From a virus: a stretch of DNA of 23,008 nt. Position 1 is the stretch's first letter. Every line of letters begins with the position of its first letter. The DNA is taken from positions 1-23,008 of IMG/VR virus record IMGVR_UViG_3300027687_000681; one strand, 5' to 3'. A program made the translations under genes and the position numbers. Shown here in pieces: positions 84-23,008 of this stretch. The notes beneath the pieces are model-generated. The model searched no databases. It had not been told where the DNA came from and saw only the letters and a program-made list of their open reading frames with translations.

Positions 84-127
84 TTAGTCTTTTAGGTTAA
101 CGTTGTGTATTTCATATTCAAATTCTT
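84..127 (-). pseudogene. Remnant of the uvsW 3' end, left-hand copy of the 40-bp direct repeat
   Basis: Positions 88-127 match 1311-1350 at 39 of 40 bases; the only difference is 105 against 1328. Read in the uvsW frame, this copy encodes EFEYEIHNVNLK, then D and a TAA stop at 84-86. The intact uvsW has the same residues and then continues with EKIEGDK. The single mismatch inside the repeat is synonymous (CAC against CAT, both His). No start codon or independent gene is attached. I read it as the ancestral end of uvsW, stranded downstream of amt when amt entered. The amt stop codon (126-128) overlaps the repeat by 2 nt. Confidence 0.85.
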
Positions 128-1289
128 ACTTTCTTTTATTCATAAACTCTGGATAAGCATTGCCAGTACCTTCATACATATCAGAGCCAACAAGTTCTTC
201 TTCTTTGCCTACCCTAATACCAATTGTCTTGCCTAGTATAAACCACACCGCATATGATGTTGTAAACACAAAGCCACCGATAATACCAATACCATATAGT
301 TGTGCTAGTATTGTTCCATCAATGTTAAAGATAGGAACTAATAGTAATCCAATTATACCTGCAATACCGTGTACAGAAATAGCACCAACTGGATCGTCAA
401 TTCCCCACTTCTCAAGTAAAGTCATAGAAACTGGAATTAAAATTCCACCTAATAGTCCGTATAGTATTGCAAACTCTGGACTTGGTGATAGGGGGTCAGC
501 AGTAATAACAACTAGTCCTGCTAATGCACCGTTTAGTGTTACGTTAAGTACAACTCGTTTTGTCCATAGTTTAGATACAATCATTGCACCTAACAATCCA
601 CCTGAGGCAGCCATGTTAGTGTTTACAAAGATTTTACCTAATGCTTGTGCATCAGATATAGTATCAAATTTTAATTGTGATCCTCCATTAAAGAAAAACC
701 AACCAAGCCATAGGATTAACGTACCTAGTGCAACCAGTGGCATATTGTTTCCTGGAATATTCTTTGGATTGCCATGTTTATCATACTTGCCATCACGAGG
801 TCCAATTAATAATACAGCCGCAAGTGCCGCACTTGCACCAGCCATGTGAACAATGCCAGAACCAGCAAAATCAATAAATCCTAGTCCACTTAAAAATCCA
901 CCTCCCCAAGTCCATTGACCTTCTAGTGGATAAATCACTGCCGCAAATACTGTTGAGAATATCAAGAATGACCATAACTTTTTACGTTCTGCCACTGCTC
1001 CTGAAACAACAGACATTGCAGTTGCAACGAATACCATTTGGAAAAAGAAATCAGCATAGATGGCATGACCTTCTGGCTCAACCCATCCATACATAATTTT
1101 ATAACCGCACAACAAGAACGCAATACTTGCTACTGAAAACAATGCTACGTTCTTGGTTAATATTTCTGTAACATTTTTGGTTCTTACTGAACCTGCTTCA
1201 AGAGCAGTAAATCCTGCCGCCATCCACATAACCATTGCACCTGATATCAAAAAGAATACTGTGTTTAATGCATAGTCTAATTCGTTCAT
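126..1289 (-). CDS. amt: Ammonium transporter (Amt/MEP/Rh family), auxiliary metabolic gene
   Basis: This is a 387-residue inner-membrane channel protein for ammonium uptake, close to full family length, with about eleven hydrophobic segments. Family hallmarks are present: AGFTALEAGSVRTKN in the first helices (25-39), SGAVAER (96-102), the pore pair His148 (in DFAGSGIVHMAGA) and His307 (in DDPVGAISVHGIAG), and Asp140. The C-terminal cytoplasmic motif is recognisable as EEELVGSDMYEGTGNAYPEF. Nothing is truncated, so it looks functional. Its ATG shares one base with the uvsW stop (TAATG), and a GGAGA Shine-Dalgarno lies in the uvsW end, so it is translationally coupled to uvsW. It is not part of the T4 core gene set. 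The flanking 40-bp repeat marks it as an insertion. The inferred role is to raise nitrogen import in the infected cell. Confidence 0.95.
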   Translation of the reverse strand: MNELDYALNTVFFLISGAMVMWMAAGFTALEAGSVRTKNVTEILTKNVALFSVASIAFLLCGYKIMYGWVEPEGHAIYADFFFQMVFVATAMSVVSGAVAERKKLWSFLIFSTVFAAVIYPLEGQWTWGGGFLSGLGFIDFAGSGIVHMAGASAALAAVLLIGPRDGKYDKHGNPKNIPGNNMPLVALGTLILWLGWFFFNGGSQLKFDTISDAQALGKIFVNTNMAASGGLLGAMIVSKLWTKRVVLNVTLNGALAGLVVITADPLSPSPEFAILYGLLGGILIPVSMTLLEKWGIDDPVGAISVHGIAGIIGLLLVPIFNIDGTILAQLYGIGIIGGFVFTTSYAVWFILGKTIGIRVGKEEELVGSDMYEGTGNAYPEFMNKRK

Positions 1290-2800
1290 TATTTATCTCC
1301 TTCTATTTTTTCTTTTAGGTTAACGTTATGTATTTCATATTCAAATTCTTCTTCAGTATAAATGTTGATTCGTTCCTGAAAGTGTTTTAAAGTATAATTC
1401 TCTTTTGACTTATAAATTAAATCATCCGATATATCATATAAAGTGGCATTAACTTTATTATCTCCTAGTCTTAAACCTCTACCGATTGATTGTAGATTTC
1501 TTATTCTGCTTTTAGAAGGACTCGCAAAGATTATATTATGTAAATTCTTAATGTTAATACCAGTAGAAAAAGTACCATAACTTGCTACAATAATAGCATC
1601 ATTTTCGTTCTCAACTATGGCTCTTGCCTTTTCTCTTTCTTCTGTTTCTACGCCACCATATATATAAAAAACCTTTCGATTTTCTTCCGCTTTTTCTTCA
1701 ATAATCTTATGTAAATTTTTACCATGTTTTTCTACAAGTTGAAATAATATTAAAGTATTACCTTTCAGTTTAAGTGCTAGATTACGAATAAAATTATTTC
1801 TAGGTTTACTACCTACAAGATAATCTATCTCGTCTTGATATTTACCATTTGACACAATTTTAGAATTGGCTTCACTGTGTTTAAGAATTAAACATCTAAC
1901 CACTAGATTACTTAACTGTTTCTTATCCATTAACTTTTTAGTTGTAGTTACCTTATTAACAGCGCCGAATAGTCCTTCTAATACTAACTTATGTGTATGA
2001 GCACCATCTAATGTTCCTGTAAGACCGATACGATATTTACAATCAATAAGTTTAGTCATAATTTCTGTTAATGATTTTGATTTAAATAGATGTGCCTCGT
2101 CACCAAACACAACACCAAATTGTTTAAAGTATTCTTTTGGCAACTTATATAAACTTTGCCATGTAGATATCAACACTTTTTTATTAGTTTGATTTGAATA
2201 TCCGCTATATAATCTATGACAATACTTCTTTACATTCCAACCATATGATTCAAAATCGGTATACATTTGTTCTACTAATGATGTTGTAGGAACAATTAAA
2301 AGTATTCTACTATTGTGCTGTTCTTTGATTAGATGAGTGTAGTATCGTATTAAGGAATATATGATGAATGACTTGCCTGATGCAGTAGGACTTACTAGCA
2401 ACGCCCTATTGCGTTTTAAACTATGATATATGGCGTCTATCTGATAATCTCTTGCTTGAAATTTTTGCCCTAAACTATTAGAAAATTTAGTTACCGTTCC
2501 TTTGTCAACCTTGTTATCTATCTCTATACCTTTACCAGCAACTATGCTATACCCTCTTTCATCTGCAAAGGCTTTGATATATGGATATAGTCCAAAGTAT
2601 ATCTCTTTCGTCTTTTGTGAAAACAATCTTATCTTGCCATCCCACATTCTATTTCGAAATGCTGGCATAAATTTGTATCCTGGTACATAGAAAGTAAAAA
2701 ACTCCGATATCTCTCTTTGTATATCAGGCTCAGTTATTACTGTAATGTAAACTTCATTTACCTTTTCTATAATAAGAAGATTAGAATTATCTTTATTCAT
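1289..2800 (-). CDS. uvsW: UvsW-like superfamily 2 DNA/RNA helicase
   Basis: This 503-residue SF2 helicase has the length and gene neighbourhood of T4 UvsW, which unwinds R-loops and branched DNA and switches replication from origin-dependent to recombination-dependent initiation. Visible motifs are Walker A PTASGKSF (138-145), the DEAH box GDEAH (233-237), motif III GLTGT (259-263) and motif VI QSIGRGLR (437-444). The N-terminal 100 residues correspond to the UvsW N-domain. It lies three bases after a 2OG oxygenase gene and close to uvsY, keeping the recombination genes near each other. Its final codons, ending KEKIEGDK, contain one copy of the 40-bp repeat and appear rebuilt compared with the older end KD-stop preserved at 84-127. 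Confidence 0.95.
   Translation of the reverse strand: MNKDNSNLLIIEKVNEVYITVITEPDIQREISEFFTFYVPGYKFMPAFRNRMWDGKIRLFSQKTKEIYFGLYPYIKAFADERGYSIVAGKGIEIDNKVDKGTVTKFSNSLGQKFQARDYQIDAIYHSLKRNRALLVSPTASGKSFIIYSLIRYYTHLIKEQHNSRILLIVPTTSLVEQMYTDFESYGWNVKKYCHRLYSGYSNQTNKKVLISTWQSLYKLPKEYFKQFGVVFGDEAHLFKSKSLTEIMTKLIDCKYRIGLTGTLDGAHTHKLVLEGLFGAVNKVTTTKKLMDKKQLSNLVVRCLILKHSEANSKIVSNGKYQDEIDYLVGSKPRNNFIRNLALKLKGNTLILFQLVEKHGKNLHKIIEEKAEENRKVFYIYGGVETEEREKARAIVENENDAIIVASYGTFSTGINIKNLHNIIFASPSKSRIRNLQSIGRGLRLGDNKVNATLYDISDDLIYKSKENYTLKHFQERINIYTEEEFEYEIHNVNLKEKIEGDK
1311..1350. repeat. Right-hand copy of the 40-bp direct repeat flanking amt
   Basis: This is the copy inside the intact uvsW coding sequence, covering codons for FEYEIHNVNLK near the C terminus. 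It matches 88-127 in the same orientation with one mismatch, at an offset of 1223 bp. The segment between the two copies is amt together with its ribosome-binding site and the last uvsW codons. Confidence 0.95.
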
Positions 2801-2803
2801 AAT

Positions 2804-3367
2804 TTACATAACCCAAGTCATAATGCTATATCTAACACCACTAGTAACTTTTTTAACTTCATGTGGATACATAAAGTTTGACGGAAACACTACAGCAGAA
2901 CCCTTGCCTTTATCAATTGTTTCACCACACAATGTAAATTCACCACCATCATAATCTTCGTTTAGAAATATTAAAGATGTTATATGTGGATAACCTTGTT
3001 TTTGCCCATGACTATGATGAATATTATCTATATGTTCTTTCATAAACCCACCAGTTTCATAACAGTTAATTCTAAAATGTGTATATTCTTGAACCTTTAT
3101 TTTATCATGTACACTAACATAATCATTGACCGTTTTTTCAAAACCTTTTTGTAAAGTTTCGTAAAACTTATCTTTTGGTCCAATCCAATAATCTTTCATC
3201 TCAACTTTAGATGTGCCTGTGTTGCTATTTGTTGTTGTAAAGGTAGATGTTTTCCACCCCTTAAAGTGGTCTTTATTGTAGTAATTAATTATATTATCAC
3301 AGGTAGTTGAATCTAATAATTTTGGATAACAAAATATAAAGTTAGAAATTTCCTGATTGGAATTCAT
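2804..3367 (-). CDS. 2-oxoglutarate/Fe(II)-dependent oxygenase, prolyl-hydroxylase-like
   Basis: A 187-residue protein of the 2OG-Fe(II) oxygenase superfamily. The jelly-roll ligands are visible: HxD as His112 and Asp114 (KEHIDN), the distal His169 (FMYPHEVKK), and Arg179 (SGVRYSIMTW), the expected 2-oxoglutarate binder. The strand TSLIFLNEDYDGGEF and a following GKGSAVVFPS segment fit P4H/PiuC-type enzymes. A clear AGGAG lies 6 nt before the ATG. Its start overlaps the end of the upstream oxygenase gene by 26 nt, and uvsW follows 3 nt after its stop, so the three should be co-transcribed. The substrate is unknown; protein side-chain or nucleobase hydroxylation are possibilities, not conclusions. 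Confidence 0.88.
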   Translation of the reverse strand: MNSNQEISNFIFCYPKLLDSTTCDNIINYYNKDHFKGWKTSTFTTTNSNTGTSKVEMKDYWIGPKDKFYETLQKGFEKTVNDYVSVHDKIKVQEYTHFRINCYETGGFMKEHIDNIHHSHGQKQGYPHITSLIFLNEDYDGGEFTLCGETIDKGKGSAVVFPSNFMYPHEVKKVTSGVRYSIMTWVM

Positions 3368-3941
3368 GGTGTTCTCCTAATTGACCTCTTATCTGTATAT
3401 TCCATGATATACTTATACGATTACTCGTTGATAGATTTGTAGGTACCCAATGTACTAACCATGAAGGGAAGATTATTATTCGATTTGTTTTTGCTTTATA
3501 ATGTAATAGATTTGTATTGTTATTATCGATTTTTTTTCTTGGTAGTATAACGCCTGCACCTGGTCTTGGGTCCTGAAAAGTAATACCTGGTGTAGTTTCG
3601 CCAGCGTCTAAATAAAAAACGCCACTTAAAAAATTGTTTGAATGAGTATGAGGCTGATGAGTTTCATGTTGTTTTAATACATTGGCCCACATATCAGTTA
3701 TTTCTATTTCATCTGCCTTATAATTTAACTTATCAAGTATTTCAAAACTTGACTTACTAACCTCTCTAGTGAAATCTTTAAAAATATCCATCTTATCTAA
3801 ATTCGGACTTGATTGCCAATTAGGTCTTTTATCTCTTATATATTGATCTAACACTTCACCTTTCATAGTATAAATTATATCAGGACTAATGAAATCGTCC
3901 TTAATGAAAAGATGTGTTGAGAATATTTCTTGATGTTCCAC
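3342..3941 (-). CDS. 2OG-Fe(II) oxygenase of the TIGR02466 type
   Basis: A 199-residue protein with the pattern of the TIGR02466 putative 2OG-Fe(II) oxygenases: MWANVLKQ (84-91), HQPHTHSNNFLSGVFYLD (95-112), FQDPRPG (122-128), then IIFPSWLVHWV (156-166) with the distal His164, and NRISISWN (174-181) with Arg175. It is a clear paralogue of the protein at 22224-22832, sharing MWAN, THxH, SGV(F/Y)Y and DPRPG. The start is a GTG at 3939-3941 sharing its first base with the uvsY stop (TAGTG), so translation is coupled to uvsY. No nearby in-frame ATG would keep the N-terminal family region. Biochemical function is unknown. Confidence 0.85.
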   Translation of the reverse strand: MEHQEIFSTHLFIKDDFISPDIIYTMKGEVLDQYIRDKRPNWQSSPNLDKMDIFKDFTREVSKSSFEILDKLNYKADEIEITDMWANVLKQHETHQPHTHSNNFLSGVFYLDAGETTPGITFQDPRPGAGVILPRKKIDNNNTNLLHYKAKTNRIIIFPSWLVHWVPTNLSTSNRISISWNIQIRGQLGEHHEFQSGNF

Positions 3942-4369
3942 TATATGGCACCACTAGTGAATTTCTTCCACTCAATAGCGTTTTTAATTAGGAATGTTCT
4001 ATTATTAATACTTCTTAATACTTGTTCAAGATACTTAACTATTTGATTTTGATATGCAACCTTTTGATCTGCTTTTTGTAAATCTGAATCTGAATCCATA
4101 TAGATATGTACATCTGATTTTAATACCTTTATGTCAAAAGGCTTTAAAATATATACAGCTGCATCTGCCTTGCCTGTATAATATTCCCATTTATCTCTTA
4201 ACATACTTTTATGCTCATATTCTGATTTCTTTAATAGTAAAGAAAACTTATTAAAGTATTGTAAATATTTGTTATGTAGCAAAGGTATCTTAATTGATTC
4301 AGCATCTAATTCTGTATCATCTAATTTAAAATCCCTATCAACTGATTTTTGTAATTCTTCTAATGTCAT
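3941..4369 (-). CDS. uvsY: UvsY-like recombination mediator
   Basis: A 142-residue protein, close to the 137 residues of T4 UvsY, the mediator that loads UvsX recombinase onto gp32-covered single-stranded DNA. It shares the N-terminal start (MTLEELQKSVDRDFKLD), the central basic region KSMLRDKWEYYTGKADA (55-71), a DSDSDLQKAD stretch, and the C-terminal NRTFLIKNAIEWKKF segment in the positions expected from T4. It is mostly alpha-helical and highly charged. Its position, downstream of the capsid genes and close to uvsW, is typical of marine T4-like phages. The UvsX recombinase itself is not in this window. Confidence 0.85.
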   Translation of the reverse strand: MTLEELQKSVDRDFKLDDTELDAESIKIPLLHNKYLQYFNKFSLLLKKSEYEHKSMLRDKWEYYTGKADAAVYILKPFDIKVLKSDVHIYMDSDSDLQKADQKVAYQNQIVKYLEQVLRSINNRTFLIKNAIEWKKFTSGAI

Positions 4370-4393: not shown

Positions 4394-5194
4394 TTAATTG
4401 TAAAGCATCTGTGCCATTTTTTCTTGTGTTATATATTTTAGATTAGCACACGAACTCCATTCGGGTATTTCGGAAGCGGTAAAATCACCAGGAGTATCGC
4501 TGTTTACCTTATAGAATTGCACTTTGCTAAACTTATCAAAGGTATTCTTATGTTGTAGTATCCAGTTATATGTTTCATCTGGATTATTAGGATTCATTGC
4601 CAATGCGTCTTTCTTAGAATAACCTTTTGTACCTGCATACAAGTTATTGATTTTATCATTATCAGAATATAGATCATGTCCTACAATGAATACTGTTTCA
4701 GCACCCAAATCACAGGCAAGATGTACTGAACGACTACCTGTTGCATAGGCAAATCCATCTACATCTGGTTCTATACTTTTAACAGGACCTTGCTTTTCTT
4801 TCACTTCGGTCACATATGCAATTCCTAAATTCTTTCCTTTAACTGCTGTAAAAACTCCATCGGCACCATGATAAACACATTCATTTCCCCCTTCGGTGGC
4901 GTCGGAATCAATTTTTGTTTTACAAGAGCGTAGCATCTCCATTGCAACCATATTCGGTATTGGAGTCCAATAACCTAAATACGCTTTCATATTGTTAAGA
5001 TTTGCCTTACGATATATCTCATGGGAAATTCTTGAATCTACTGCCACTAATATGTCAGGAGTGAAGTCACGATAGATAGCATTACAACCTATTACAGTTG
5101 CATACTTTTTCATTTTTTCGAGATCTAAGCCTTGTCTTGATTGCCCATTACCCAGGCAGACTGCTATTTTGTTCCATGTTAAAGTCTTCATCAC
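4394..5194 (-). CDS. Rossmann-like protein resembling DUF115/MptE-type or sialyltransferase-like domains
   Basis: A 266-residue protein of uncertain function. It opens with KIAVCLGNGQSRQGLDLE, the glycine-rich nucleotide-type loop typical of DUF115-like domains, followed by VIGCNAIYRDFTPDILVAVD (33-52). A second conserved block, YATGSRSVHLACDLGAETVFIVGHDLY, resembles the half where such domains recognise the nucleotide part of a CMP-sugar or related ligand. An SD of AGGA precedes both the GTG at 5192-5194 and the ATG at 5189-5191, so either may be the start. It lies between the gp3-like gene and uvsY. A glycosyl- or nucleotidyl-transfer role is a weak inference; no catalytic residue is certain. 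Confidence 0.75.
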   Translation of the reverse strand: MMKTLTWNKIAVCLGNGQSRQGLDLEKMKKYATVIGCNAIYRDFTPDILVAVDSRISHEIYRKANLNNMKAYLGYWTPIPNMVAMEMLRSCKTKIDSDATEGGNECVYHGADGVFTAVKGKNLGIAYVTEVKEKQGPVKSIEPDVDGFAYATGSRSVHLACDLGAETVFIVGHDLYSDNDKINNLYAGTKGYSKKDALAMNPNNPDETYNWILQHKNTFDKFSKVQFYKVNSDTPGDFTASEIPEWSSCANLKYITQEKMAQMLYN

Positions 5195-5222
5195 AAATCA
5201 TCCTATATTTTTGTACTATGTA

Positions 5223-5822
5223 TTATGAAGTAGAAATTTGTGCAATTTCGTAATACATATAATTAAAACTTGCTTGTACTTGTAAGTAGTCAACGTCACT
5301 TGCCTTAATATCATAAGACAATGACCCTAAAGAGATGGGATAAACATTTTGAAATCTTATTTCAGTTTTAGCAATATTCTTACTGTTTAAAACTATTAAA
5401 GTTGCGTCTGAATATATACCACCTTCGTCAAGAGGTTGTTTAATAGATGTTCCTGTTGCAACTGTACTTGCTGTTGTTCCTGGAAATCTATCAGCACTTG
5501 TTCCTTGTAGATCTGCAAATTGATTGTGATTTTGTGGAAATCCTAGACCTGTAATCCAGTCGTGTATCTCTTTGTAGTTATTTAAATTTTCATCAACAAG
5601 AAACGAAACATCTAAAGTTTGATAATTTACTTTATCTCCTGCACCAGCAATGTCTTTTAATGGTGTTTCTTGATTAGTCGATCCTAAAGAAATACCAGGT
5701 ATGTTTGCTGTTTGTACAAAAAACTCAACCTGTGGAAGTTTAGACATTTTAAATCTAAACTGAATAGGACTTGCATAGTCAAATTTATCTGGCTCTCTAT
5801 CGAGTATATTTGTTGTTGTCAT
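5223..5822 (-). CDS. gp3-like tail completion / tube-fold protein
   Basis: A 199-residue protein of the gp19/gp3/gp54 tube-fold type. It has FRFKMSKLPQVEFFVQTANIPGISLG (23-48), the typical strand-turn pattern of tail tube domains, then LDVSFLVDENLNNYKEIHDWI, which resembles T4 gp3. The C-terminal half ends in IKASDVDYLQVQASFNYMYYEI, the usual closing strands. It is distinct from the main tube gene at 13005-13532, which carries the gp19 signature. Its place after gp23 and before uvsY matches gene 3 in marine T4-like phages. gp3 caps the tail tube and stabilises the sheath before head joining. An alternative is a second tube paralogue. Its ATG overlaps the upstream small gene by ATGA. Confidence 0.7.
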   Translation of the reverse strand: MTTTNILDREPDKFDYASPIQFRFKMSKLPQVEFFVQTANIPGISLGSTNQETPLKDIAGAGDKVNYQTLDVSFLVDENLNNYKEIHDWITGLGFPQNHNQFADLQGTSADRFPGTTASTVATGTSIKQPLDEGGIYSDATLIVLNSKNIAKTEIRFQNVYPISLGSLSYDIKASDVDYLQVQASFNYMYYEIAQISTS

Positions 5823-5992
5823 AATATTTTGCCTTTATTTTTACCTTGCTTAATCATATATTTTTGTGTTCCATTTGCACCAATCTCTACTTCTTTACGA
5901 GAAAACTTAAACATCTTCATTTCTTTAGCATCTTGAAATTTTCTTTGAACATAATCTAAAACTTTTTGTTTGTTAATTTTATCTCTATCCAT
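5819..5992 (-). CDS. Small basic protein, 57 residues, unknown function
   Basis: The short reading frame runs from the ATG at 5990-5992 to a TGA at 5819-5821 that overlaps the start of the gp3-like gene by ATGA. That overlap, and a GAGGGTG ribosome-binding site just ahead of the ATG, support it as a real gene. The product starts MDRDKINKQKVLDYVQRKF and ends IKQGKNKGKIL; it is rich in Lys and predicted helical in the first half. I recognise no domain. A TATAAATA late box at 6085-6092 lies about 90 nt upstream, so it probably opens the late unit that contains the gp3-like gene. Confidence 0.7.
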   Translation of the reverse strand: MDRDKINKQKVLDYVQRKFQDAKEMKMFKFSRKEVEIGANGTQKYMIKQGKNKGKIL

Positions 5993-6050
5993 TACACCCT
6001 CTTTATTAAATTAAAATTAGGTGCGTTCCTTCAGCTTATGCTTACTACCG

Positions 6051-6070
6051 TCTTGTATAGTTTTACAAGA
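6051..6070. repeat. Inverted repeat in a late leader
   Basis: A 7-bp perfect inverted repeat, TCTTGTA and TACAAGA, is separated by 6 nt. It lies a few bases downstream of the transcription start expected from the TATAAATA box at 6085-6092, in the untranslated leader of the 57-residue gene. No T-run follows on the minus strand, so it is not a terminator. It may be an RNA hairpin or a protein site. Confidence 0.5.
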
Positions 6071-6084
6071 TGAACGTATATTAC

Positions 6085-6092
6085 TATTTATA
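6085..6092 (-). promoter_or_regulatory. T4-type late promoter box TATAAATA
   Basis: This is an exact match to the T4 late promoter -10 consensus, which is recognised by the gp55 sigma factor with gp33/gp45. It stands in non-coding DNA just after the zinc-ribbon gene, with the 57-residue gene and the gp3-like gene downstream. No -35 element is needed for this class. Confidence 0.7.
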
Positions 6093-6097
6093 TGTTT

Positions 6098-6238
6098 TTA
6101 TTGATGCCATCCTAGATCTTCTATTTTTTCACTATTGCAATTCGGACACTGCCATTCGCCATCTTCATCTGGTAACACTAAATCTGGTGGTGTACCTTTC
6201 CATGTGCAATCATAACAATACCAGTTCCACTCTTTCAT
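6098..6238 (-). CDS. 46-residue zinc-ribbon protein
   Basis: A very short gene from the ATG at 6236-6238 to a TAA at 6098-6100. The product begins MKEWNWYCYDCTWKGTPP and contains two CxxC knuckles, Cys8/Cys11 and Cys31/Cys34 (WQCPNCNSE), spaced as in rubredoxin-like zinc ribbons; five Trp residues are also notable. Four-cysteine zinc binding is a confident structural inference, the function is not. T4-type phages use small zinc proteins in regulation and DNA metabolism, but I cannot assign this one. It lies alone between the gp23 terminator and a late promoter. No Shine-Dalgarno is visible and no other in-frame start exists before a stop, so it may be translated from a leaderless mRNA. Confidence 0.8.
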   Translation of the reverse strand: MKEWNWYCYDCTWKGTPPDLVLPDEDGEWQCPNCNSEKIEDLGWHQ

Positions 6239-19325: not shown

Positions 19326-20132
19326 TTATCCTTGTTGCATATGTGCAGGCTCTTCATAATTTGATCTTATTTCTTCTTCAAGTTTTTGTTGTTCTGCTAT
19401 TGCTGTTGAGAATAGCTCAGGTCCGTTAAGTGTTACTCCACCTAACATTGCTGTGCCATTAAACTTGGACAAATTTTGTCCCCATTGTCTTTTGATTAAG
19501 GCTGTTGTATATCTTTTTAAATAGATATCATCAAACATATCTGTGAAAGTTGCAGGATCTAATCTACGATAAACTTCTATAACTAAAAATTCTCCTGCTG
19601 TAATATCATTTGACCAATCTTGATCAATATATAATCTATTTGATAGATGATTAAATCTCATTGGTTTTTCTCCAACTAATACATGGTCAAGAAAGTCCAA
19701 GTGTTTCATTGTCATTTCATAATGAACAATACTAGTAGATGAAAAATCATATAGATCATTTAATCTTAATTGATATCTAACATCAAACATATTTAAGTTT
19801 GCTCTATCAGATAAAGGAAATACATTAACAACAGAAATAACTGTTGAAGGAACTATAAGAAAATTATTTCCTTGTTTCCATGCAGTAGTCACTGAATTTG
19901 ATGTTACAGACTCAGATGAATCAGTTGTCATACGAGTTACATCATCTGCGGTTACTTGATATTTTAAATACATTCTTTCAACACCATCTGTATGATATTG
20001 ACAAAAATATTGTACTGCTTCATCTATTCTATCGTCTACCTGATCATCATCAACGTTTATGTCAATTACAGGTTTACCTAGTGATCTTAGGCAGTATTCT
20101 TTTAATGTGTCTTTTGTATTTGGTACGGCCAT
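19326..20132 (-). CDS. gp13: Neck protein gp13
   Basis: A 268-residue head completion protein (T4: 309). The beginning TKDTLKEYCLRSLGKPVIDI followed by VDDDQVDDRIDEAVQYFCQYH is diagnostic. FVIPSTVISVVNVFPLSD-type sequence and EVYRRLDPATFTDMFDD (about 189-205) add support. gp13 joins the portal and gp14. The C-terminal 30 residues are charged and helical. AAGGA lies 9 nt upstream of the start. Confidence 0.93.
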   Translation of the reverse strand: MAVPNTKDTLKEYCLRSLGKPVIDINVDDDQVDDRIDEAVQYFCQYHTDGVERMYLKYQVTADDVTRMTTDSSESVTSNSVTTAWKQGNNFLIVPSTVISVVNVFPLSDRANLNMFDVRYQLRLNDLYDFSSTSIVHYEMTMKHLDFLDHVLVGEKPMRFNHLSNRLYIDQDWSNDITAGEFLVIEVYRRLDPATFTDMFDDIYLKRYTTALIKRQWGQNLSKFNGTAMLGGVTLNGPELFSTAIAEQQKLEEEIRSNYEEPAHMQQG

Positions 20133-20158: not shown

Positions 20159-21160
20159 TTATCCTAATGCGACTGCTTGTGCGATTGCAAATGCTTTAGT
20201 AGCCTTAGAGTCTAAGACTGTTTGTATATTATTCCCATCTAGTGTTAAAACACCAGTGATTGATAAATTTCTAAATCCTGATATATCTTTATTAGTATCA
20301 ACAATTACTACTTTACTAGCACTAATTGTTCCTGCAGTAACACCATCTAAAACTGCAATTTCAGTACCAGCAATTTCAGTATCACCAACAATAAGTGAAC
20401 CACCTGTTAAATATAATTTACGCCAAGGTCTTGTTGCAGAACCTAAATCAAAAGTTCCTGATGTTGTAGGCAATAAATCAGCAGATATTTTATTTGTATC
20501 TAGTCCACCACCAACAGTAGAAAGTTGTACAGAAGTGGCGTTTTTAAAATTTAAAAACTCCTGAGTTAATTTTTCTAAAGTATCAATAGACCTAAGTTTA
20601 GATATTTTTTCTTTCTCTAACTCATTAGCAACTCTCATTTCTGAAATCTGCTTAGATACTTTATCTATTATACTATCATCATATACTGGAACTTCTTTAG
20701 GAAGTAAATATTCTAATAATCCTGAAGCTGCTTCAATCTCTTGTGTCTTGATCGCACCAGCTTCATCTTTCTTAGGTTCTTTCTTAGGTTCTTTCTTAAT
20801 CTCAACTTTAGGTTCTACTTTTTTTTCTTCAACAGGTTTTTTCTTTTCTTGTTTTAAAGTAGAAAAAAGTTCTTCTAAAGCACCAATCTTAATTTCTTCT
20901 TTCTTAACTTTTTGTTCTAGTTGTTCTTTCTCAACCTGTACAGTAGATAAAAAACTATCTAATCTATGTCCTAATATATCAACTTCTTTTGGTAATACAC
21001 TTTGAATACCTTTAGTAAATTTTTGTTCTTGTAGTTGTCTAATCTGTTTCTCAATATCTTCGTCAATCTCATTAACTTCATTAACAACTTCAACCTTTTG
21101 AATAGTTGGTTGAGACACTAAATCAGGCCATTTACTATCAAGATAATTTTTAGTTGACAT
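20159..21160 (-). CDS. Coiled-coil fibre-like protein in the wac (fibritin) position
   Basis: A 333-residue protein of unrecognised family. Residues 25-105 are predicted coiled coil (EKEQLEQKVKKEEIKIGALE), residues 105-132 are a Lys/Glu/Pro linker with KKEPKKEPKK, 160-205 is a second helical part, and 220-325 is a beta-rich domain with TSGTFDLGSATRPWRKLYL and VIVDTNKDISGFRNLSITGV, motifs shared by marine phage fibre proteins. In T4 the gene before 13 is wac, whose trimeric coiled coil makes the collar whiskers. By position and architecture I infer a neck or collar fibre; sequence homology to fibritin is not visible. Confidence 0.7.
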   Translation of the reverse strand: MSTKNYLDSKWPDLVSQPTIQKVEVVNEVNEIDEDIEKQIRQLQEQKFTKGIQSVLPKEVDILGHRLDSFLSTVQVEKEQLEQKVKKEEIKIGALEELFSTLKQEKKKPVEEKKVEPKVEIKKEPKKEPKKDEAGAIKTQEIEAASGLLEYLLPKEVPVYDDSIIDKVSKQISEMRVANELEKEKISKLRSIDTLEKLTQEFLNFKNATSVQLSTVGGGLDTNKISADLLPTTSGTFDLGSATRPWRKLYLTGGSLIVGDTEIAGTEIAVLDGVTAGTISASKVVIVDTNKDISGFRNLSITGVLTLDGNNIQTVLDSKATKAFAIAQAVALG

Positions 21161-21164
21161 AACT

Positions 21165-21497
21165 TTATCTAGTTACACTTGGTGTAACTGTGGCTCTTCC
21201 CTCAATTTGTCTAGTGACGATACCACTTGAATCAGTTTGAGTTAAATCCCAAACATATCTACCTTCAGAAAGACCTGAGGTAACTGTGTCTGTTAATGTT
21301 ATTGAACAAGTACCATCAGTTGCACTTACAAGAGCAGTAGTAAAACTTGTAGCACTACTTGACAAATGAGTTTTTCTCAACTTACTTGTCATTGTACTTC
21401 CTGTTAAATCTACGACTGTTCCTGTAGAATCTTTAACAGTTAAAGTTTCTGTGAAATCAGCGTCCTGGTCAATAGTGATATTTTGTATTGTTGCCAT
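21165..21497 (-). CDS. Small beta-rich protein, Ig- or BppU-like
   Basis: A 110-residue protein rich in Thr, Ser and Val. The pattern QDADFTETLTVKDSTGTVVD, then LTGSTMTSKLRK, later SEGRYVWDLTQTDSSG and REIEGRATV-type closing strand, resembles the upper baseplate BppU-type or Ig-like beta domains, in which a parameterised strand pair follows a short linker. It is 4 nt upstream of the coiled-coil protein and behind a late promoter. It may attach to or fold with its neighbour. No enzymatic motif is present. Confidence 0.72.
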   Translation of the reverse strand: MATIQNITIDQDADFTETLTVKDSTGTVVDLTGSTMTSKLRKTHLSSSATSFTTALVSATDGTCSITLTDTVTSGLSEGRYVWDLTQTDSSGIVTRQIEGRATVTPSVTR

Positions 21498-21570: not shown

Positions 21571-22227
21571 TCAAGAGAAATTAATTTTGGGTATACCCAA
21601 CATAGGTCTTTTATCGTACAAATTAGTCTTTGCAAAGGGTCCACTTGCATGGTTATAGTGAAGAAACACTTGACCACATAGCTTACCTTGGAAAGGTTCT
21701 CTCCAATGCTCTAATTCGCAACCAGAGTATATAATCATATCACCTGGTTTAAGATCAATTCTTACACCTTTAGGTGCATTAGGTTTCATTATACCTTGGT
21801 ATTCATTAACAACATTATTAGATCCTGTTGGATCTATGAATATTGGCCATAGATCACCACCTAGGTTAATCGTTGTTGATATCTCACAACTAGGTCTATC
21901 TTTATGTCTATTTAATATATTACCTGTTCTGTATAATCTTGTGTAAGAATAAGTGGGTATTAAATCTAATCCTGTTTTAGCTTTCATTACAGGTATTGTT
22001 TGAATTAGTAGTGTCTCCATTAATCGATCTGCATATTTAGCATAGGATCCTGGTACTTGTTTATCTTTAAAATCACCTATTAATGAATTACCCTCATGTG
22101 TTACACCATTTTGTAACATCCAATGATCTGCCTCTGCTGATATTTGTAAATAAGAAAAAGCTATGTCAGCTAGTTCTTTTGATATAGCACCACGTATAAC
22201 TTGATATTTATTTTTTTTAAAACTCAT
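21571..22227 (-). CDS. 2OG-Fe(II) oxygenase, HxD type
   Basis: A 218-residue 2-oxoglutarate/Fe(II) oxygenase. Ligands are His108 and Asp110 (NRHKDRPS), with the partner His174 (ELEHWREPF) after a PGDMIIYSG strand. TRLYRTGNI (96-104) precedes the metal motif as in P4H-like enzymes. A second strand CEISTTINLGG follows. It overlaps the upstream oxygenase by ATGA (4 nt). It resembles the 2804-3367 protein only in general fold, so both form two HxD-type members, each following a TIGR02466-type one. The substrate is unknown. Confidence 0.86.
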   Translation of the reverse strand: MSFKKNKYQVIRGAISKELADIAFSYLQISAEADHWMLQNGVTHEGNSLIGDFKDKQVPGSYAKYADRLMETLLIQTIPVMKAKTGLDLIPTYSYTRLYRTGNILNRHKDRPSCEISTTINLGGDLWPIFIDPTGSNNVVNEYQGIMKPNAPKGVRIDLKPGDMIIYSGCELEHWREPFQGKLCGQVFLHYNHASGPFAKTNLYDKRPMLGIPKINFS

Positions 22228-22832
22228 GTTTGTATAAAATTATAAGAAACAGATATTCTCCAGTTCTTCTCACCTTTTTCTGTGTTCATATTTATATCTA
22301 CGCCATGAGGCTGCCATGCTGGAAAAAATATCATTCTACCCTCAACAGGTTCATAAGCACATACTCTCCATAATTGTTCGGGCAGATTATCTAGTCGTCT
22401 TGGCATATATGTATTAGGTCCTGGTCTCGGGTCTTCTAAAAATAATTTACCTGAGTTCTTTGGTACTTTAATATAATATACACCTGACCATAATGAGTTA
22501 GGATGCGTGTGTGTTTTGTTATAACTGTGCGTGGGATTGATATTAGCCCACATATTACCTAATCCTAGTTTAGGTTGTACACCATAATCTTTATTACATT
22601 CTTCTGCCATTTTAAATAGTTCTGATGTAAGTGGATCAAATATTTTTTTTTCATTCATGTCAGTTTTACTATGCCAACCATAACCTGAATTAGTTTTTAT
22701 CTCACCTTTAGGGTCAGCTTTCTTCCATGCTTTAATATGTTTAAATAAATATTTATTTAACTCTTTAGCATTAGGTAAGTCTTTAAAATATATAGGTGTT
22801 GGAAATAATGTTTTTCTTTGTAATGAACTCAT
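22224..22832 (-). CDS. 2OG-Fe(II) oxygenase of the TIGR02466 type
   Basis: A 202-residue paralogue of the protein at 3342-3941. It has LGNMWANINP (91-100), THTHPNSLWSGVYYIKV (107-123), FLEDPRPG (131-138), the distal His176 (FFPAWQPHGVD) and Arg192 (WRISVSYNF). The start LFPTPIYFKDLPNAKEL is typical of TIGR02466. Overlap with both neighbours is ATGA, so the three oxygenases form one tightly coupled unit. A TATAAATA inside it (22289-22296) is likely chance. Confidence 0.88.
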   Translation of the reverse strand: MSSLQRKTLFPTPIYFKDLPNAKELNKYLFKHIKAWKKADPKGEIKTNSGYGWHSKTDMNEKKIFDPLTSELFKMAEECNKDYGVQPKLGLGNMWANINPTHSYNKTHTHPNSLWSGVYYIKVPKNSGKLFLEDPRPGPNTYMPRRLDNLPEQLWRVCAYEPVEGRMIFFPAWQPHGVDINMNTEKGEKNWRISVSYNFIQT

Positions 22833-23008
22833 TTAAATGGTGTCCCACCAAACCACATAACCAATGATCTTCTCATTCCTTTTTTAACTGGTGCTACTCT
22901 ATGTCTAATAAAACTTGCAAAGAATATAGCTTGACCTTGTTTAAGATCAGGTATCTTATTCTTTTCCATAAATTCTAATTCACCACCTTTAAAAGTAGAA
23001 GGGTCTGA
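22829..23008 (-). CDS. 2OG-Fe(II) oxygenase, C-terminal 59 residues only
   Basis: The gene enters from the right edge in frame; the visible chain is SDPSTFKGGELEF, then a linker and AIFFASFIRHRVAPVKKG with the distal His, then MRRSLVMWFGG with the 2-oxoglutarate Arg. This PiuC/P4H-like end is distinct from those of the two genes that follow. The TGA at 22829-22831 overlaps the next ATG (ATGA). The HxD pair is outside the window. Confidence 0.82.
   Translation of the reverse strand, partial: SDPSTFKGGELEFMEKNKIPDLKQGQAIFFASFIRHRVAPVKKGMRRSLVMWFGGTPFK

Follow-up and report, generated by a model that had tools for sequence, protein, structure and literature searches.

The virus record IMGVR_UViG_3300027687_000681 of IMG/VR (23,008 bp; the whole record is called the window here) has a T4-like structural gene set and carries five genes with signatures of 2-oxoglutarate (2OG) and Fe(II)-dependent oxygenases, all on the minus strand and arranged in two clusters, A and B (Table 1). 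The three genes of cluster B, at the right end, are the right-hand part of a co-inherited cassette, consisting of the helical protein U1 and the oxygenase genes O0, O1, O2 and O3, and this cassette crosses as a block between T4-like phages and phages that we call HTVC023P-like. The order in cluster B is B1, B2, B3, a small gene related to fibre assembly, a fibre-like gene and gp13, with B1, B2 and B3 corresponding to O1, O2 and O3; in cluster A it is uvsY, A1 (TIGR02466), A2 (PF13640, phrog_61) and uvsW. We regard both this gene architecture and the independence of the two clusters from each other as nearly certain. The T4-like genes of the window include those for portal, sheath, tube, terminase, neck proteins, major capsid and protease as well as uvsY and uvsW, and the closest cultured relatives of A1 and B3 are Pelagibacter phages.

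Table 1. Features of the window and their positions.
Feature	Position	Strand	Remarks
B1 (O1), 3' end (59 codons) of a phrog_61/PF13640 oxygenase gene	22829-23008	-	cut by the contig end
B2 (O2), TIGR02466-type oxygenase (PF13759, phrog_81)	22224-22832	-	H-x-H motif
B3 (O3), phrog_2954	21571-22227	-	public label "ferrochelatase", here re-assigned to a predicted 2OG-Fe(II) oxygenase fold
Recombination switch point inside B3	21900-22070	.	99.4% DNA identity to L194 towards lower coordinates, about 65% towards higher ones
Small gene related to tail-fibre-assembly families	21165-21497	-	phrog_1084, E 7e-25
Probable fibre-like structural protein (weak assignment), between cassette and neck genes	20159-21160	-	phrog_30158, E 4.5e-8
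Neck protein gp13 (phrog_211), backbone anchor of the cluster B site	19326-20132	-	100% identical in L194
uvsY, flank of cluster A	3941-4369	-	PF11056, 138 bits
A1, TIGR02466-type oxygenase between uvsY and A2/uvsW	3342-3941	-
A2, phrog_61/PF13640 (P4H/PKHD-like) oxygenase	2804-3367	-
uvsW helicase, flank of cluster A	1289-2800	-	phrog_16 DNA helicase, E 1e-107; same slot in Mosig
Ammonium transporter, full-length, directly after uvsW	126-1289	-	PF00909, 307 bits; kept in L008

A co-inherited oxygenase cassette and its exchange between phages

Loci anchored on O2 (the best 80 of 338 confirmed B2 relatives) have the order O0-O1-O2-O3 in 47 cases, O1-O2-O3 in 22, O2-O3 in 10 and O2-O3-A2 in one, and O3 lies within two genes after O2 in all 79 loci where 500 nt or more are available for it. 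The same order recurs among the relatives of O3 (the best 80 of at least 592), where U1, a helical protein of 227 amino acids, precedes O0 and a ParB-like gene sometimes separates O2 from O3. Two further sets consist of the best 80 of 416 loci (L194/gp13 search) and the best 80 of 526 (search with kelch-like genes); since all sets are the best 80 of larger ones, the counts describe near relatives. The loci are partly non-independent: L130 and L194 belong to one contig, as do L063 and L140, and L140 was left out of the Mantel comparisons and of the co-inheritance comparison with kelch-like genes. L001 and L002 are the window itself; they are included in the 58-row tree described below and possibly in the motif counts and the set of 157 O3 rows. 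The cultured phages HTVC033P and HTVC023P have the order O1-O2-O3 too; the runs of HTVC008M and Mosig, which include the same families for O1 and O3, are looser.

The genes of the cassette are inherited together: at the 95 loci with complete O0 to O3, the distance matrices of the four proteins correlate with Mantel r of 0.83-0.94. At the 39 loci that have U1 and the flanking downstream structural gene D1 in addition to these four, U1 correlates with O2 (r = 0.94) and O3 (r = 0.91), while D1 follows the cassette only weakly (r = 0.26-0.30); near-copies inflate Mantel r, and the D1 comparison on the same loci serves as the control. U1 is predicted to be all-helical and coiled-coil-like and was found in 65 copies of 205-250 amino acids. 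The copy of L103 (1259-1942) has no Pfam or PHROG match and its model no Foldseek match below E 0.001; U1 is a possible scaffold or adhesin chaperone. The small gene inserted between O2 and O3 in some cassettes is ParB_N-like (PF02195; 3804-4214 in L103), and L194 has an open reading frame of 107 amino acids at this place.

Over 11,060 bp, the window and L194 are 99.4% identical in DNA and their gp13 proteins are identical; their O2 and O3 proteins are 48% and 76% identical. Within B3, at about 21.9-22.07 kb, the DNA identity drops from nearly 100% to roughly 65%. The O2 and O3 proteins of the window are 91.5% and 91.6% identical to those of L036 and L037, two loci that carry D1 and are without T4-like neck genes, and the DNA similarity between window and L037 stops at 21,585, at the end of B3. 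Thus, O2 and O3 of the window match D1-type loci and its backbone matches L194, showing an exchange between T4-like and HTVC023P-like phages. We infer the label HTVC023P-like (podovirus-like) for the D1-type loci from the occurrence of D1 also in HTVC023P and from the presence of DNA polymerase A in three of the 12 records searched; a T4 portal was found in one of the 12, the record of L130.

The B3/O3 protein and its ferrochelatase label

B3 belongs to phrog_2954 (E 5.4e-53), and the public label of this family, ferrochelatase, is very probably wrong, judged from the structure model. The AlphaFold2 model of B3 (pLDDT 88.9, pTM 0.87) has a double-stranded beta-helix fold, with Pseudomonas prolyl-4-hydroxylase (P4H) as the top Foldseek match (4iw3, E 1.7e-9). 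The 50 VIA matches listed are 2OG oxygenases with Z of 14.6-16.4, among them SnoN (Z 16.4, root-mean-square deviation 3.4 over 180 residues), the Pseudomonas P4H structure 4j25 (Z 15.6, deviation 2.9 over 162 residues) and PHD2 (Z about 15); trans-proline hydroxylase H11 is also among the Foldseek/VIA neighbours. The H-x-D...H iron triad (H108, D110, H174) is invariant in 157 of 157 O3 rows and Arg176, two positions after the distal histidine, is invariant too. By predicted fold and triad, B3 is very likely a 2OG-type oxygenase, with the activity being predicted.

A ferrochelatase is very improbable for B3, given the predicted oxygenase fold together with the lack of any match to a ferrochelatase Pfam model. 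A Pfam scan of B3 gave no match and, at E up to 1, none of 44 O3 members matches a ferrochelatase or an oxygenase Pfam model, which may explain why the label has persisted. A search of the PDB sequences with an O3 profile returned only three weak, unrelated Mn-transporter chains. Aligned by hhalign, O3 and A2 have the H-x-D in register, with a probability of 2.6% and E 0.017; this is too weak to prove that O3 belongs with the PF13640-type proteins by sequence, and the link of O3 to the oxygenases therefore rests on fold and triad and not on sequence.

The O3-type domain also occurs joined to a domain of the phrog_61 type. In phrog_3531 (362 positions), B3 matches positions 55-174 and A2 positions 186-361, and this looks like a two-domain family. 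The "ferrochelatase" gp210 of cyanophage ACG-2014f (362 amino acids) is a fusion of O3 with a phrog_61 domain, and in cyanophage S-T4 a single open frame spans both domain types. The GenBank start of S-T4 gp025 (L277, about 5000-6152) appears to lie too far downstream, as the frame runs upstream through a complete O3-type domain. Elsewhere, at seven of 161 loci, the gene immediately after O3, no more than 6 nt away, is of the A2 type. Domains that are fused in one lineage and encoded side by side in another are a classical sign of joint function; fused in cyanophages and adjacent in other phages, O3-type and phrog_61-type enzymes are thus supported as acting together.

Ferrochelatase is not the only doubtful label in these runs: phrog_274 and phrog_2297 ("DNA endonuclease V" and "DNA endonuclease") align with oxygenases of the window over nearly their full length, and the "DNA endonuclease V" labels are, on this alignment, probably wrong. 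Genes with this label lie inside the oxygenase runs of Mosig (L003, 6663-7175) and Syn9 (L275, 5885-6403 and 7008-7592). The two Syn9 proteins have weak oxygenase matches and the Mosig protein has no Pfam match.

Cluster A and the repeated gene pair

A sequence-only reading of the window had counted five oxygenases in 23 kb and had seen the same pair, a TIGR02466-type gene followed by an H-x-D-type gene, in both clusters, with a third oxygenase upstream at the right end. The TIGR02466-type genes are present in both clusters and score above the curated cut-offs (A1 92.0 bits and B2 133.1 bits, cut-off 62.5), also with PF13759 (80.8 and 76.1 bits, cut-off 27); solved relatives of B2 are 3bvc and 2rg4. 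The third oxygenase was confirmed too: B1, full-length in relatives of the window, matches PF13640 with 32.4 bits (cut-off 27; scan of 22833-23008) and phrog_61 with E 3.5e-14. Four of the five oxygenase genes are complete, and five is a lower bound because O1 is cut by the end of the contig and, in relatives, O0 lies still further upstream.

The pairs themselves differ. A1 is followed by a phrog_61 gene (A2; PF13640 64 bits, cut-off 27; phrog_61 E 1e-33) and B2 by a phrog_2954 gene without Pfam match, and the phrog_61 gene of cluster B stands before the TIGR02466 gene, that of cluster A after it. A2 and B3 have no significant BLASTP similarity (best E 0.15, over 17-23 residues). A1 and B2, described as clear paralogues, do have MWAN, H-T-H, SGV-YY and DPRPG in common, but they are distant homologues only, with 31% identity over 149 amino acids. 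In a 58-row tree, the A1-type proteins (14 rows) form one group (support 99/98) and the O2-type proteins (15 rows) another (100/100); several unlabelled rows are long-branched, leaving the deeper order unsure. That one pair was duplicated within the phage had been offered as an explanation for the likeness, as a TIGR02466 gene is indeed followed by a gene with H-x-D motif in both clusters. The partners belonging to different families (by PHROG, BLASTP and hhalign), the separation of A1 and O2 in the tree and the absence of A2 beside A1 in four of 27 loci and in Mosig refute this duplication, to which we give hardly any credence.

Cluster A looks like a variable insertion site between uvsY and uvsW. 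A1 is preceded by uvsY in 23 of the 27 viral contigs with A1 relatives, the other four being cut by the contig edge; A2 follows A1 in 23 of the 27 loci, and uvsW directly follows in L010-L013. The slot between uvsY and uvsW holds A1 alone in phage Mosig and a different, unnamed gene of 831 bp in HTVC008M; in P-SSM2, the TIGR02466 gene lies at another place, between gp23 and gp3. Mantel r at 18 loci is 0.52 for A1 and A2, 0.63 for A1 and uvsY and 0.59 for A2 and uvsY, so that A1 follows A2 no more closely than it follows uvsY. Whether neighbours are kept together, on which the sequence-only reading had staked its case, is thus answered differently for the two clusters: O3 follows O2 in all 79 loci with room for it, and cluster A holds together by half. 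Joint action of the oxygenases is supported for the larger cassette by order, co-inheritance and fusion, but not for the pair.

Among proteins of solved structure, A2 is closest in sequence to PKHD-type hydroxylases, including PiuC (9qn0, 9ghl; E 4e-7). Identity is low between PiuC and A2 as well as between Pseudomonas P4H and B3, and substrates cannot be carried over. The ammonium transporter next to uvsW is, in a T4-like window, a possible nitrogen-uptake auxiliary gene.

The position of cluster A, beside uvsY/uvsW and the transporter, bears on the proposal that the enzymes serve metabolism or repair. In the literature consulted, 2OG oxygenases of marine phages, which are common "auxiliary metabolic genes", are explained by nitrogen signalling (Sullivan 2010), heme or iron metabolism with a ferrochelatase partner (Wittmers 2022), AlkB-like repair near uvsY (Clokie 2010) or secondary metabolites, and the Mosig run also holds a heme oxygenase and a PcyA-annotated gene. 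We consider such a role improbable: the "ferrochelatase" has a predicted oxygenase fold and none of 44 members of its family matches a ferrochelatase Pfam model, A1 and A2 match PF13759 and PF13640 while the AlkB-type PF13532 is not listed at E up to 1, and the uvsY-uvsW slot of HTVC008M is occupied by another gene.

Fibre genes and the possible substrates of the cassette enzymes

At the cluster B site, the small gene between cassette and fibre-like gene also matches phrog_3304, "L-shaped tail fiber protein assembly" (E 1e-18), and genes of this type adjoin the cassette in T4-like relatives by neighbour order. The fibre-like gene varies in size among relatives and gave no match in a Pfam scan; phrog_30158, which it matches, is annotated as unknown function. 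Being upstream of gp13/gp14 and widely variable among gp13 loci, the site fits the host recognition cluster of pelagimyophages, whose other border, at VrlC, would lie beyond the contig end at 23,008.

On the other side of the cassette, fibre or kelch-like genes lie upstream in 49 of the 50 loci that have O0 and more than 2.5 kb of upstream sequence, and U1 is present in 48 of these 50. The upstream matches are to the Mosig tail fibre or to phrog_27227, a family annotated as unknown function that we call kelch-like from the look of its repeats. The link also holds in the opposite direction: of the 52 loci anchored on kelch-like genes that extend 3 kb or more downstream, 50 carry at least two oxygenases, and U1 is likewise present in 50. 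At the same site as in the window, the T4-like locus L242 has three kelch-like genes, U1, O0 to O3 and an A2-type gene. Cyanophage Syn9 has fibre and fibre-assembly genes, two halogenases and a run rich in oxygenases and cupins that ends in the "ferrochelatase" gp54. Tryptophan-halogenase-like genes stand beside oxygenases near fibre or packaging genes in HTVC008M (L005, 296-2255; PF04820, 354 bits), L259 (4419-7052) and Syn9 (L279, 6966-10071). These halogenases and the oxygenases might share a native substrate.

From linkage alone, we infer as the most likely reading, held tentatively, that the cassette enzymes modify the adhesins of the phage itself. O0 to O3 would work as a set, each binding Fe(II) and 2OG in a double-stranded beta-helix, and would hydroxylate side chains of the fibre or kelch-like adhesins during assembly. 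Several enzymes would be needed because different residues or successive steps are targeted, and the need for the enzymes to fit their substrate would make the cassette travel together with the adhesins. A bolder version, to which we attach somewhat less weight, is a mobile multi-enzyme modification kit for receptor-binding proteins, made of four 2OG oxygenases and a coiled-coil helper, with halogenases in cyanophages: a hydroxyl (perhaps halogen) pattern would be written on beta-propeller or fibre adhesins, and unrelated phages would swap adhesins and enzymes as a unit, changing host recognition.

Several observations weigh against a modification of adhesins. Linkage does not prove a relation of enzyme and substrate, as unrelated functions share hypervariable islands. 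The kelch loci L302 and L341 have no oxygenases, the window itself shows no kelch gene (its contig ends too early), and the nearest kelch-like gene tracks O2 only moderately (r = 0.42; D1 0.18). Of the 64 loci that combine kelch-like genes with O3, D1 lies downstream in 43, 14 leave too little room to tell, one has a T4 neck and six are of other kinds; with most kelch loci coming from one phage type, the fibre linkage is in part shared ancestry. Among the 37 T4-like gp13 loci with 1 kb or more in view (counted from gp13 where the small fibre-assembly gene was not found), 10 have oxygenases at the cluster B site and 27 have none, and the oxygenases are thus dispensable for the backbone. Two points concern the enzymes themselves. 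Many 2OG oxygenases hold 2OG with a lysine or arginine near the position 12 residues after the distal histidine; O3 has an invariant glutamine there (Gln186, 157 of 157), near the usual site. The TIGR02466 types A1, O2 and O0 have a conserved H-x-H and not H-x-D.

The same genes could instead serve superinfection exclusion or the competitiveness of the host, by modifying its surface glycans or making a small molecule, a possibility that we rate well behind adhesin modification. Host recognition clusters of pelagimyophages also contain glycosyltransferases to which a change of the host surface is ascribed (PMC7029224), and Iyer et al. predict that a cluster of halogenase, 2OG-Fe(II) dioxygenase (2OGFeDO) and carbamoyltransferase in a cyano jumbo phage makes a metabolite or decorates the capsule (PMC7824862); the structural neighbours of B3 include the small-molecule oxygenases SnoN and H11. 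Yet the annotations of the cultured cassette regions examined, in which not all unnamed open reading frames were scanned, name no enzyme of the glycosyltransferase, carbamoyltransferase or methyltransferase type. The genes that constantly accompany the cassette are those for fibre or kelch-like proteins and for the helical U1, and the closest solved relatives of A2 are hydroxylases of the PKHD type.

It is rather unlikely that the oxygenases take part in the takeover of the host by hydroxylating its proteins, such as EF-Tu or those of the ribosome. The top Foldseek match of B3, 4iw3, is a Pseudomonas P4H solved with EF-Tu, and one gene of the Syn9 cluster matches JmjC_2, a family that includes the ribosomal oxygenase YcfD. 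Fold similarity does not fix the substrate, however, and a host target leaves unexplained the joint exchange with fibre genes and the rarity of the oxygenases in T4-like relatives.

Parts of this picture are already in print: co-located oxygenases and "ferrochelatases" (PMC9599517), oxygenases in genomic islands (PMC3909814) and the host recognition cluster (PMC7029224). Wittmers et al. 2022 (PMC9599517) describe co-located 2OG-Fe(II) oxygenases in HTVC023P-type pelagiphages, always adjacent to a "ferrochelatase"; in HTVC023P these are gp65-66-67, of the O1, O2 and O3 types, and the same genes as in the cassette. There, O3 is treated as a ferrochelatase and the oxygenases are regarded as too expanded and too short for building trees; in the present analysis, O3 is an oxygenase by predicted fold, and the genes keep a fixed order, are inherited together and move as a block into T4-like phages. 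The host recognition cluster of Zaragoza-Solas et al. 2020 (PMC7029224) is the same hypervariable region, with tail fibres, and ends at the neck genes; the paper stresses glycosyltransferases, and its main text contains no word that starts with "oxygenase", the sole mention of 2OGFeDO relating to Fonsibacter phages. For metaviromic islands of marine phages, Mizuno et al. 2014 (PMC3909814, Table 1) list eight Fe(II)-dependent oxygenases with "host recognition" as inferred function; this row is the only place in the main text with the word oxygenase, and neither a mechanism nor a gene order is given for them. The Syn9 run (gp41-gp54) resembles the cassette in adjoining tail-fibre and fibre-assembly genes and in ending with the "ferrochelatase" family, and differs from it in having more families (JmjC_2, DUF6445, two halogenases) and low sequence identity. 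A statement that phage oxygenases modify tail fibres was not found in searches of the open-licence papers of PubMed Central. New, as far as these searches show, are the fold predicted for the "ferrochelatase"; an order of four genes, with U1, that is fixed and co-inherited; the passage of the block into T4-like phages, with its switch within B3; the linkage to kelch-like genes in both directions; and the fusion of O3 and phrog_61 as evidence for joint action.

The re-assignment of the "ferrochelatase" takes away a central support of the iron and heme reading, and cultured carriers of these genes exist in HTVC023P, HTVC033P, HTVC008M and Mosig. If the cassette enzymes do modify adhesins, they would not be metabolic but part of host recognition, and phages would vary their receptors chemically and not by sequence alone.

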